In this document: piece after piece, positions 578 through 12,907 of the stretch
Layout: each line of letters starts with the position of its first letter
Position numbering within the stretch: position 1 is the stretch's first letter
From: Paraburkholderia caballeronis
GTDB taxonomy: Bacteria > Pseudomonadota > Gammaproteobacteria > Burkholderiales > Burkholderiaceae
DNA: 64,000 bases
NCBI RefSeq assembly: GCF_900104845.1
Contig: NZ_FNSR01000001.1
Location: 124,001 to 188,000, forward strand
Direction: 5' to 3'
The notes under the pieces: generated by a model
Told to the model about the DNA's origin: nothing
What the model saw: the letters and a program-made list of their open reading frames with translations, nothing else
The model's database searches: none
Made by a program: the position numbers and the translations under genes

Positions 578-1270
578 TCACCTTTCGCCATCCCCACGAC
601 GTAGGTCGAGCACCATACGAATCGACGCCAGTTCTGATGGCAAGCGCGGTGACCGGTCGCGACTCCGGGACGTGTCAGCGAACCCTAATCGCCGGTATAA
701 CGCTTGAGCACGCGTATTGCTCACAAGTACGTCGAGAATGAGTTGACGTCCGTCGACAACATCGAGCAATTTCGGCCGAAGCACGTTCCTGAACAACGCA
801 CTAAAAATCCCGGTAGCGCGTAAATGCTCATTAGTTGCGCAGTGCGCAATCAGCGTTTGATGGCGCCGCGGTTTCGGCAATTCGCCCTCCAGCGTAACGC
901 CCCTGCTCAAAGCTTGCAGCGTACGCGACGTCACTCCCAGGTACCGCACTAGCAGCCATGCAATATGCAGATCGTCGAACAATAGTGTGCGCCCGTCGAG
1001 CACGGCAAGCACTGCGCAGACAGTCCCGTCGTCGGCCACCGCAACCCAATGACGTCGCCAGGAAAAGCGTCCGAACGTCTGTACAAATGCAAAGCGCAGA
1101 AATTCAATGCATTCGGCCGCTGGCATCCCGAGAAAAAAGCCAAATTCACGTGCTCCTGACGCGAAAATGAGCGAGGCACATGTGGCAGCATCGGATGCAA
1201 CCGCGGGCCGAAAAACCAGCTTCTGGCTTTCCCCAGTGGAGGCCTGGTCGCTTCGCATCGCATCAAGCAT
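578..1270 (-). CDS. GNAT-family N-acyltransferase
   Basis: A 230-residue protein with a GNAT fold: an N-terminal beta strand (KLVFRPAVASDAATC), a central strand around VAVADDGTVCAVLAV, and a C-terminal ILDVLVSNTRAQALYRRLGF that matches the last GNAT motif. GNAT enzymes move an acyl group from acyl-CoA or acyl-ACP to an amine or hydroxyl; the substrate here is unknown. The ATG at 1270 has a strong ribosome site (GGGAGGG) just upstream and lies 16 nt after the alpha-oxoamine synthase stop, so it is the last gene of the leftward wcbP-wcbT operon. In that setting N-acylation of an amino-ketone or amino-alcohol product is plausible, but this is inference. IS debris lies directly downstream. Confidence 0.75.
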   Translation of the reverse strand: MLDAMRSDQASTGESQKLVFRPAVASDAATCASLIFASGAREFGFFLGMPAAECIEFLRFAFVQTFGRFSWRRHWVAVADDGTVCAVLAVLDGRTLLFDDLHIAWLLVRYLGVTSRTLQALSRGVTLEGELPKPRRHQTLIAHCATNEHLRATGIFSALFRNVLRPKLLDVVDGRQLILDVLVSNTRAQALYRRLGFADTSRSRDRSPRLPSELASIRMVLDLRRGDGER

Positions 1271-1286
1271 TCACCCTCCCAGAGGC

Positions 1287-2624
1287 CTAACGAGCTTTGA
1301 CGCGGATAAGCGCCAAGACAGTGTCACTGATCTGCTGCTGCGTGTGAGTTGAGCAGATGAAGAACCGCAAACGTGCCGCGCGCTCCTCCACAGCCGGATA
1401 GAAGATCGGCTGTACGTTGATACCTTCATCGAACAGCGCGTTCGCCCACTGCGCGGCTTTGAGCGAACTGCCGGTGATGACCGGCACTATGGCATAGCCT
1501 TCACTTTTTCCCGTGTCGAATCCGGCCGCTCGCGCCTCCTCGACAAATTGATGACCGCGCTCGCGCAACATTGCGACGCGCCACGGCTCCGCCTGCATAC
1601 GCCTGAGCGCAGCAAGCGATGCAGCTGCAAGCGACGGCGCAAGGCCCACACTGTAAAGAAAGCCGGGGGCAAGATGTCGTAGCATATCGATCAGCGGCTG
1701 GCAGCCGGCGATAAACCCACCACAACCAGCAAGCGTCTTGCTCAGCGTACCCATCCACAGGTCGACATCGCTGGATGCAACGCCGCAGCGTTCGCGAATG
1801 CCCTTCCCGGTCTCGCCAAGCACCCCGAGCGAATGTGCCTCGTCCACCATAAGGAACGCGTCGTGTCGGTTGCGAATTTCAACGAAACGCGCAAGTTCGG
1901 GTGCGTCGCCGTCCATGCTATACAACCCCTCGATCGCAATCAGCACGCGACGGTAATCGCGTCGAACGCGTTCCAGCAGTTCATCGAGCGCCCGCCAGTC
2001 GTTGTGTGGAAAGCTCAGGCGCTTTGCTCCGCTCAACTGTGCGCCCTGCAGGATGCTGTTGTGCGCCAGCGCATCGTGGACAATCAGATCGCCGGGACCC
2101 AATAGAAACCCGATTACGGTTACGTTGGTTGCGTGGCCGCTTACGAACACGAGGCAGTCATCGACCTCGTATAGCGATGCGAGTTCGCGCTCAAGCTCGC
2201 GCTGCACTGGCCGCTCGCCGGCCACGATCCTGCTCGCAGATGTAGAGGTGCCGTAACGGTCAATCGCGCTTTTCGCGCTCGCCGCTACGTCGGGATCACC
2301 CGCCAAGCCCAGATAATTGTAGTTTGCATAGTTCAGATACTCGCGTCCGCCAATCTGCGTAGTCGAGCCAGCGATACCATCATGCACCCGGAAGAACGGC
2401 GACTGCACGCGCAGCGTTTCGCCCATCTGCTGAATGATCTTCACCTGCTGATACTGGGGCATCGCCTCGAAGCGACTGCGCGCGTCAAACATCGCGTCGC
2501 CCGCCCCCGGCAAGCCCGTGCGGGAAGGAACGAACGGGGTCGCCGCTTCGTCCGAAACACGCTCAAGCTGCCGTTTTAATGCCTTCGCAGCAAGCTGCTG
2601 GCGAATCTGATCGCCTAGTCCCAT
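1287..2624 (-). CDS. wcbT: Alpha-oxoamine synthase (AONS/SPT-like PLP enzyme), WcbT-like
   Basis: A 445-residue PLP enzyme of the alpha-oxoamine synthase family, which includes 8-amino-7-oxononanoate synthase, serine palmitoyltransferase and KBL. The family condenses an acyl thioester with an amino acid and releases CO2. Visible motifs are NYNYLGLAGDP (residues about 101-111), the D-E-A-H-S-L-G signature at 261-267 and the PLP lysine in GTLSKTLAG (K296). About 80 residues precede the core, as in family members that work with carrier proteins. The ATG at 2624 is preferred to upstream starts because homology begins there. It sits downstream of the polyketide synthase; B. pseudomallei capsule I carries the same pairing (WcbR/WcbT). 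The PKS has no thioesterase, so this enzyme is the likely chain-release step. The amino acid used cannot be read from the sequence. Confidence 0.85.
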   Translation of the reverse strand: MGLGDQIRQQLAAKALKRQLERVSDEAATPFVPSRTGLPGAGDAMFDARSRFEAMPQYQQVKIIQQMGETLRVQSPFFRVHDGIAGSTTQIGGREYLNYANYNYLGLAGDPDVAASAKSAIDRYGTSTSASRIVAGERPVQRELERELASLYEVDDCLVFVSGHATNVTVIGFLLGPGDLIVHDALAHNSILQGAQLSGAKRLSFPHNDWRALDELLERVRRDYRRVLIAIEGLYSMDGDAPELARFVEIRNRHDAFLMVDEAHSLGVLGETGKGIRERCGVASSDVDLWMGTLSKTLAGCGGFIAGCQPLIDMLRHLAPGFLYSVGLAPSLAAASLAALRRMQAEPWRVAMLRERGHQFVEEARAAGFDTGKSEGYAIVPVITGSSLKAAQWANALFDEGINVQPIFYPAVEERAARLRFFICSTHTQQQISDTVLALIRVKAR

Positions 2625-12120: not shown

Positions 12121-12121
12121 G

Positions 12122-12907
12122 CTAGCACTCCTCGCGCGGCAGATAAGACAGCTTGTCAAGGATGGCGTCGGCTAGCGTGGCCGGAAGCAGCGAGAGCACC
12201 CGCATGCCGATCGCCAACAGGCCTGGAAACGCGATTTCCGCCCGGCGCAAGGCAAGCTTGCGACGGATATGCGACGCGGCCCGGTCAGCGGACCATAAAC
12301 ACGGCTTGTCACCGGGAAACACGGCACTCATCGCGGTTTTAACAAAACCGGGCATGACGATCGATACCCCGATGCCATCACGCGCGAGCACCGGACGCAC
12401 AGATTCACCATAGGCTTTAAGCGCCGCCTTGCTGGCGCAATATGCCGGCGAGATCGCCATGCCGCGCAATGCCGCAAGCGAGCTTATTAGCGCGACCTGG
12501 CCTCGGCGGCGCAATCGCATGCGAACCACCACAGGCAAAACGGCATGCATTGCACCGTAGAAATTCGTGTCAACAACCGTGACGGTGCGATCAAGTTCTT
12601 CCCAGTCTTGCGCTGATTTGAGCGTGCTCGCAGCACCCGCGTTCGCGATCAGCAGATCGATCGGATGCGCATCATCGAACGCCCATAACCATGCCTGCAT
12701 CGCGCGAGCGTCCCGGACATCCATCTGACCTGTGATGACGTCTGCTCCCTGGCTACGACATGCGTCCGCACAGGCTTCGAGCCGCTCGGCGTCACGCCCC
12801 ATCAACCCGAGCACGACACCGTCCGCCGCATATGCCAGTGCGAGTGCCCTGCCAAGTCCCGCGCTCGCACCGGTAATGACGACATGGCGCGGCACCATGC
12901 TAACCAT
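12122..12907 (-). CDS. wcbP: Short-chain dehydrogenase/reductase, WcbP-like
   Basis: A 261-residue classical SDR. Visible are TGASAGLG (NAD(P) loop), the NAG motif in LLIANAGAAS, the catalytic Ser in ALISSLAAL and the YCASK Tyr-Lys pair. A hydrophobic C-terminal segment (LLAIGMRVLSLLPATLADAIL) suggests membrane association, as in 3-ketosphinganine reductase-like and DHRS7-like SDRs. ATG 12907 follows GAGGT at a suitable distance. It is the first gene of the leftward operon. As the operon also holds a PKS and an alpha-oxoamine synthase, reduction of a 2-amino-3-ketone is an attractive but unproven role. Confidence 0.8.
   Translation of the reverse strand: MVSMVPRHVVITGASAGLGRALALAYAADGVVLGLMGRDAERLEACADACRSQGADVITGQMDVRDARAMQAWLWAFDDAHPIDLLIANAGAASTLKSAQDWEELDRTVTVVDTNFYGAMHAVLPVVVRMRLRRRGQVALISSLAALRGMAISPAYCASKAALKAYGESVRPVLARDGIGVSIVMPGFVKTAMSAVFPGDKPCLWSADRAASHIRRKLALRRAEIAFPGLLAIGMRVLSLLPATLADAILDKLSYLPREEC

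Follow-up and report, generated by a model that had tools for sequence, protein, structure and literature searches.

The subject of this report is a gene cluster in a 64,000-nucleotide stretch of the Paraburkholderia caballeronis genome (7,115,141 bases in 3 contigs), hereafter called the window, which corresponds to C1:124001-188000. From position 578 to 12907 the minus strand carries five open genes in the order short-chain dehydrogenase/reductase (SDR), LtaS-like membrane protein, polyketide synthase (PKS), alpha-oxoamine synthase (AOS) and GNAT acyltransferase. An earlier note had described these genes as one leftward operon, a description that our analysis bears out, as all the frames are open on the minus strand and their families are backed by Pfam. 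The features of the operon are as follows.

12122 to 12907, minus strand: SDR, proposed 3-ketosphinganine reductase, in the position of WcbP/RkpH and PfSgaC-like (adh_short, PF00106, 7.9e-39)
10582 to 12159, minus strand: LtaS/GacH-like membrane protein, proposed phosphoglycerol transferase, WcbQ and in the position of RkpI (Sulfatase, PF00884, 3.1e-42)
2966 to 10585, minus strand: type I PKS of the WcbR/RkpA type, with the Pfam domains KS-AT-DH-ER-KR-ACP
2625 to 2965, no strand: intergenic stretch, where comparison of loci places an LpxC paralogue (wcbS by gene order) in other Burkholderiaceae
1287 to 2759, minus strand: pyridoxal phosphate-dependent AOS of the WcbT/RkpG type, proposed serine-using release enzyme (Aminotran_1_2, PF00155, 9.1e-45)
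578 to 1270, minus strand: GNAT acyltransferase (PF00583, a weak match at 2.3e-4)

In the frames as listed, the SDR and LtaS-like genes overlap, the LtaS-like and PKS genes share 4 bases, and 16 bases separate the AOS from the GNAT. Promoter-like sites numbered 0 against 3.5 expected, and terminator-like sites 13 against 12.7 expected. The AOS probably starts at the methionine at 2624 rather than at 2759, because most of its 120 listed homologues measure about 440-450 amino acids; those named by organism belong to Burkholderia and its relatives, among them Paraburkholderia, Cupriavidus and Ralstonia. For the LtaS-like protein, two listed records bear the name WcbQ. The type I PKS is known as wcbR/rkpA (PMC3908369), and the B. 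pseudomallei locus runs from wcbT to manC, with wcbT-wcbO forming one end (PMC2945791). By the published order of letters the gene missing from the window would be wcbS and the AOS would be wcbT, which makes the GNAT an extra gene.

The PKS and the AOS appear to work as a pair. Among the Pfam families listed for the PKS there is no thioesterase, and motif stretches of the KS, ER, KR and ACP domains were recognisable in all eight PKSs aligned. The lysine and the C-terminal arginine of the AOS align with those of a serine palmitoyltransferase. The identity of the AOS as a canonical bacterial serine palmitoyltransferase was nevertheless rejected, since it falls below the curated NCBIfam equivalog cut-offs for that enzyme (289 of 500, 287 of 640 and 227 of 670 bits), as does the AOS of the Pseudomonas locus L208. 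The one other match to the window AOS in this genome at E<=1e-60, in a search of the AOS superfamily, is a glycine C-acetyltransferase by NCBIfam. In a scan of named genomes, from which the best 80 loci were taken, 54 of the listed loci have an AOS scoring at least 380 bits against that of the window; a PKS frame lies directly upstream in 28 of these, and in 10 the PKS match falls in the same frame as the AOS. The remaining 16 include two loci (L063 and L067) in which a PKS also lies upstream of an overlong AOS frame, together with cut contigs and long frames lacking a PKS match. None of the 15 listed loci with an AOS below 300 bits has a PKS upstream or in the same frame.

Domain scans covered five long AOS frames. 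In a cyanobacterium of the Thermosynechococcaceae (L102) a single chain reads KS-AT-DH-ER-KR-ACP-AOS and is followed by an SDR-type frame; a myxobacterial frame (L090) reads KS-AT-KR-DH-AOS with no ACP match, an actinomycete frame (L086) reads KS-AT-weak ACP-AOS, and two frames from Planctomycetota (L079 and L085) are AMP-binding-ACP-AOS fusions. From the PKS frames upstream of the AOS and from these fusions, this AOS subfamily probably acts on ACP-bound chains. The planctomycete fusions suggest sphingoid synthesis directly from fatty acids on an ACP. PKS and AOS matches also share one frame in L094 and L104 (Myxococcota) and in L106 and L111 (Actinomycetota), and the frames of cyanobacteria, Myxococcota and Actinomycetota are candidates for unstudied sphingoid natural products.

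An older view, expressed in the title of a 1993 paper, describes the PKS as similar to a fatty acid synthase, and it would fit a scheme in which the capsule is acylated with the PKS chain, set free as a fatty acid or ester, and the AOS stands outside that pathway. We regard this as highly improbable given that the PKS has no thioesterase, that PKS-AOS fusions exist, one of them with an identical domain set, and that the product of a PKS/AOS pair has been demonstrated in a Pseudomonas relative (PMC12134224). The sponge-symbiont fatty acid synthase of the Swf type was also considered as the closest relative and rejected; SwfA is distinguished from WcbR/RkpA, and no AOS figures among the genes described for the swf operon (swfA, B, C; PMC3908369). 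The linker between DH and ER in the window PKS (2966-10585) is of methyltransferase size and has no Pfam methyltransferase match, and the eight aligned PKSs show no conservation of the stretch inspected there as methyltransferase motif I. Such a linker recalls animal fatty acid synthase.

The chemistry of a related pair is known from Pseudomonas fluorescens MYb115, in which an iterative PKS (SgaA) and an AOS (SgaB) produce C24, C26 and C28 sphinganines, and phosphoglycerol-sphingolipids are also made via PfSgaAB (PMC12134224, 2025). Serine-specific condensation was shown there by assay, the roles of the other enzymes being proposed, and in the sections of that paper on pathway, distribution and discussion no phosphoglycerol transferase is named. 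A search of its main text for the terms 'capsul', 'wcb' and 'rkp' gave nothing. In the genus of Pseudomonas sp. S37 (L069) an AOS of this kind occurs in 7 of 199 genomes, and the stretches around it were compared for six of the seven, all except G372. Four of these six (L206, L208, L209 and L210) share a layout of KpsC-KpsS-SDR-LtaS-like, a second KpsC-like frame, and then AOS and PKS on the opposite strand; G589 has a KpsC-like frame and a short LtaS-like frame near the AOS, and G397 has neither within the stretches compared. The SDR of MYb115 is KW062_RS19775, and its AOS and PKS are RS19800 and RS19805 (PMC12134224), a spacing which, judged from the locus tags rather than from sequence, fits the layout of L206 and L208-L210. 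The window AOS is 57% identical to that of L208 over 438 amino acids, the SDR 43% over 250 and the LtaS-like protein 41% over 517. The window and PfSgaABC thus have in common a single-module reducing PKS without thioesterase beside an AOS, the same AOS subfamily (as judged by the L208 AOS and not by PfSgaB itself), and a KDSR-like SDR (a likeness judged via the L208 SDR). They differ in that PfSgaABC is described as a secondary-metabolite cluster, whereas the operon studied here lies in a capsule locus. It is very likely that a sphingoid base is the product of the operon. The fungal pathways for fumonisin and sphingofungin, which combine a PKS, an AOS and a KDSR-like reductase and yield secondary metabolites, can be likened to it in their enzyme types. 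Those pathways use the same release logic as the PKS and AOS here. The parallel through KDSR has been drawn before (PMC12134224).

The LtaS-like protein has GacH as its best match both in sequence and, through its model (pLDDT 90.2), in structure. The LtaS-type threonine is kept in all relatives of two alignments (14 of 14 and 24 of 24), and E234, T276, R334, H393, D456 and H457 are invariant across 24 aligned rows. We take these residues to be the catalytic threonine, the metal-binding glutamate and Asp-His pair, and the arginine and histidine of the glycerophosphate site. That arginine is missing in one of 14 aligned relatives, L051, a partial frame which also lacks the YGDH end. Fold and motif residues are therefore those of the LtaS/GacH phosphoglycerol transferases, and the protein is a candidate phosphoglycerol transferase; it would differ from GacH, LtaS and LtaP in acting, as proposed, on a lipid amino alcohol and in a Gram-negative bacterium. 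In genome G028 (L043, 4810-8043) an LtaS-like domain terminates a 1,078-amino-acid open frame whose first 570 residues are putatively coding.

The link to the capsule comes from the genes that lie to the right of the operon.

17592 to 18797, minus strand: KpsS-type beta-Kdo (3-deoxy-D-manno-oct-2-ulosonic acid) transferase, proposed user of the operon's lipid, in the position of WcbO and placed by the tree (PF05159, 4.2e-98)
33099 to 35108, plus strand: KpsC-type beta-Kdo transferase (PF05159, in two stretches)
19590 to 23257, plus strand: capsule ABC exporter genes of the KpsM/KpsT type (PF01061, PF00005) and two neighbours without a Pfam match

The presence of KpsS, KpsC and an ABC exporter marks the locus as one for an ABC-exported capsule of the KpsS/KpsC type, and the PKS, AOS, SDR, LtaS-like and KpsS genes together constitute the wcb/rkp-1 capsule lipid operon. 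KpsS is known to put the first Kdo on phosphatidylglycerol (PG) or its lyso form, (lyso-)PG, in some serotypes of E. coli and N. meningitidis (PMC7694667). Full-length KpsS accompanies the AOS well beyond this window: it was found in 6 of 7 AOS-positive Pseudomonas genomes against 1 of 192 others (one-sided Fisher P 6e-10), and in 13 of 15 AOS-positive Burkholderiaceae against 9 of 105 others (P 5e-10), or 13 of 17 against 9 of 103 when two weaker AOS matches are counted (P 1e-8). In a sample of the phylum, KpsS of at least 160 bits occurs in 8 of 11 AOS-positive and 20 of 238 other genomes (P 1e-6); with a cut-off of 200 bits, which excludes 15 genomes of the sample with full-length matches of 163 to 196 bits, the AOS-negative count falls to 5 of 238 (P 6e-10). 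A PF05159 match at any score is present in 27 of the 29 genomes of the listed named loci with the operon, compared with 41 of 249 in the phylum sample.

The LtaS-like gene follows the same pattern. Of 31 genomes that carry both the operon and a full-length KpsS, 21 have it no more than 5 kb from KpsS, compared with 0 of 20 that have KpsS and lack the AOS (P 4e-7), where lacking the AOS means no AOS match of at least 349 bits; several of the 20 have weaker ones, the best being 301 bits in G067, and a PF00884 match 5.7 kb from KpsS in G103 was counted as beyond 5 kb. In G095 and G151 the LtaS-like and KpsS genes stay together on a contig other than that of the PKS-AOS pair. These counts bear on the idea that the LtaS-like enzyme puts glycerophosphate on the polysaccharide in the manner of GacH, with a separate role for the PKS-AOS lipid. 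GacH, the best structural match, acts on a cell-wall polysaccharide. An outward-facing domain would moreover encounter exported capsule. However, the linkage of LtaS-like and KpsS genes accompanies the presence of PKS and AOS, and a phosphoglycerol-sphingolipid has been found in MYb115 (PMC12134224), so we judge decoration of the polysaccharide to be very unlikely.

A tree of KpsS proteins (55 rows, built from 54 of 55 loci plus the window, with L196 left out for want of a KpsS match and long branches flagged) places all 31 operon rows and both rows of the operon genome G393 in one group (94/84), and the 20 rows without AOS fall outside it, G032 barely. In G388 and G391, which have two KpsS copies each, the operon-adjacent copy falls inside the group and the other copy belongs with the AOS-negative KpsS family f46. 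It could be argued that free sphingolipids are made as secondary metabolites or host-interaction factors, and that capsule genes adjoin them through shared regulation or transfer; the sphingolipids of MYb115 do affect a nematode host (PMC12134224), and in some genomes the PKS-AOS pair occurs without PF05159. We find this quite unlikely, as the adjacency to KpsS recurs in Rhizobium and Ensifer, in Burkholderiaceae and Allopusillimonas, and in Pseudomonas, it tracks the KpsS grouping even for copies within one genome, and rkp-1 mutants are reported to be deficient in capsular polysaccharide (PMC4881576).

Taken together, we consider it probable that the operon makes a sphingoid phospholipid which is both the lipid acceptor and the anchor of the capsule. 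The PKS would iteratively assemble a saturated acyl chain on its own ACP, and the AOS would then condense the chain with an amino acid, of which L-serine is the most likely, and so release it, with decarboxylation, as a 3-ketosphinganine, which the SDR would turn into sphinganine. The LtaS-like enzyme could then move glycerophosphate from PG to sphinganine, giving sphinganine-phosphoglycerol, a mimic of lyso-PG. We infer that KpsS uses this lipid as the capsule anchor: it would attach the first beta-Kdo to the glycerol and KpsC would lengthen the Kdo linker, after which the capsule would be assembled on the Kdo-bearing lipid and carried outward by the ABC exporter. Several proposals of the earlier note find a place here. 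Condensation by the AOS followed by reduction by the SDR and addition of a head group is supported by the characterised PKS/AOS pair (PMC12134224) and by the PKS-AOS fusions; the LtaS-like threonine site proved conserved in relatives, and the head group can now be specified as phosphoglycerol; and of the capsule roles suggested, the KpsS evidence points to that of an anchor. With slightly less confidence, we believe that many ABC-exported capsules of Gram-negative bacteria (Burkholderiaceae, Bordetella, rhizobia, some Pseudomonas and others) are anchored on PKS-made sphinganine-phosphoglycerol by a KpsS group of their own, and not on lyso-PG.

The same lipid might instead be a transient carrier or exporter cofactor that is not covalently present on the mature polysaccharide. 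Rhizobial papers leave room for this, calling the rkp-1 product a lipid carrier with a part in secretion (PMC4881576) or a carrier or anchor (PMC3557214). Yet the phosphoglycerol head group reported for the P. fluorescens lipid is the very group that KpsS glycosylates on (lyso-)PG, and the gene coupled to the operon is KpsS itself. A purely transient role thus appears unlikely.

A number of points weigh against the anchor proposal, of which the main difficulty is topological. The catalytic domains of LtaS-type enzymes face away from the cytoplasm. KpsS acts at the interface of cytoplasm and membrane (PMC7694667), so the sphingoid lipid would need to be flipped inward. For this organism the proposal rests on relatives, the lipid and the capsule terminus being predicted. 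The Fisher P values are uncorrected for relatedness and the score cut-offs were set after the lists had been seen; the operon group in the KpsS tree (94/84) is not starred, and the tree partly tracks taxonomy. In 10 of the 31 operon genomes KpsS has no LtaS-like match inside 5 kb. Six operon genomes (G012, G169, G041, G309, G381 and G394) have no listed PF05159 match, nor do the weaker-AOS genomes G267 and G307, and G259 and G390 have weak matches only. G012 has two PKS-AOS loci (L048 and L049), one of them beside KpsT-like exporter genes. In Pseudomonas, KpsS lies about 2 Mb from the AOS in G397, and G589 has the AOS and no full-length KpsS match. Conversely, genomes that have full-length KpsS and lack this AOS are not uncommon (20 genomes of the tree, 9 Burkholderiaceae and Pseudomonas G549). 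The PKS-AOS genomes without a listed PF05159 match stand as counterexamples, in which the lipid must serve otherwise or the assembly lacks the capsule genes.

Comparison with other capsule systems shows which parts are shared. The loci of Ensifer (L078, L082) and Rhizobium (L095) are arranged as PKS-AOS-SDR-LtaS-like-KpsS, which would fit rkpA-G-H-I-J of Sinorhizobium rkp-1 if letters are assigned by order; no GNAT or LpxC paralogue was found in these three loci, whereas the window has a GNAT. The wcbT-wcbO end of Burkholderia capsule I has the SDR, LtaS-like (WcbQ), PKS (WcbR), AOS and KpsS types in common with the window, and the gene set is also present in capsule loci of Burkholderia and Bordetella relatives. 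With the (lyso-)PG/beta-Kdo terminus of E. coli and N. meningitidis capsules the locus shares KpsS, KpsC and an acceptor presenting phosphoglycerol, but dedicated genes would supply the sphinganine backbone of the acceptor proposed here. Excerpts on B. pseudomallei report phenotypes for a deletion that runs from wcbR to wcbA, so that the effect of the PKS is not isolated. Those from rhizobial papers go no further than calling the rkp-1 lipid a lipophilic carrier or anchor, and those of a 2006 rhizobial review hold nothing on rkp-1 chemistry. Our literature search, whose reach took in few subscription papers or preprints, found no paper tying PKS-derived sphingolipids to capsule anchoring. The sphingolipid chemistry of PKS and AOS has been known since 2025; what is new is the capsule context, the candidate phosphoglycerol transferase and the grouping of KpsS. 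If the anchor proposal is true, the capsule lipid proposed since the 1990s for rkp-1 and wcb would gain an identity, PKS-derived bacterial sphingolipids, rkp-1/wcb capsule lipids and KpsS acceptors would merge into one pathway, bacterial sphingolipids would act as capsule anchors, and the numerous sphingolipid-type PKS clusters counted in Burkholderia would acquire a physiological reason.

Two further genes are, on sequence grounds, Burkholderiaceae additions outside the shared core. The window has a GNAT, as do L068, L070, L072, L075, L077 and L214. N-acylation of the base by this enzyme as a general step could not be supported: the named homologues listed (those with organism names among 120 of 152) all come from Burkholderiaceae, and the characterised lipids are sphinganines and phosphoglycerol-sphingolipids. 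A ceramide synthase was likewise rejected, as in a structure search the GNAT model matched small-molecule and protein N-acetyltransferases. Paraburkholderia antibiotica has a GNAT homologue, yet none was found in its locus L084. The LpxC paralogue of the wcbP-T form sits between PKS and AOS, immediately upstream of the latter, in 12 of the 15 Burkholderiaceae genomes with an AOS above 690 bits, and in 6 of the best 80 named loci (L068, L070, L072, L075, L077 and L084), all Burkholderiaceae. It is missing from the operon in G263, G331 and the window genome, whose single LpxC is elsewhere; a remnant was sought in the PKS-AOS gap (2625-2965) and none was found. The paralogue of L077 passes the NCBIfam equivalog NF009666 (UDP-3-O-acyl N-acetylglycosamine deacetylase), and its gene neighbourhood suggests that it acts on a substrate other than the one this name implies.

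One more gene of the capsule locus can be named with confidence.

14291 to 15730, minus strand: manC, mannose-1-phosphate guanylyltransferase (TIGR01479, 664 bits, above cut-off)

The remaining genes of the locus include a nucleotidyltransferase, HAD-type sugar genes and a Poly_export protein. An IS110-type transposase lies at 16150-17355, between manC and the KpsS gene, and more transposase-like frames were seen by eye immediately left of the window in L009. The GC content is about 55-65% over the capsule region (1-40000) and 66-72% past 40 kb (40001-64000), which is the pattern of a transferred island.

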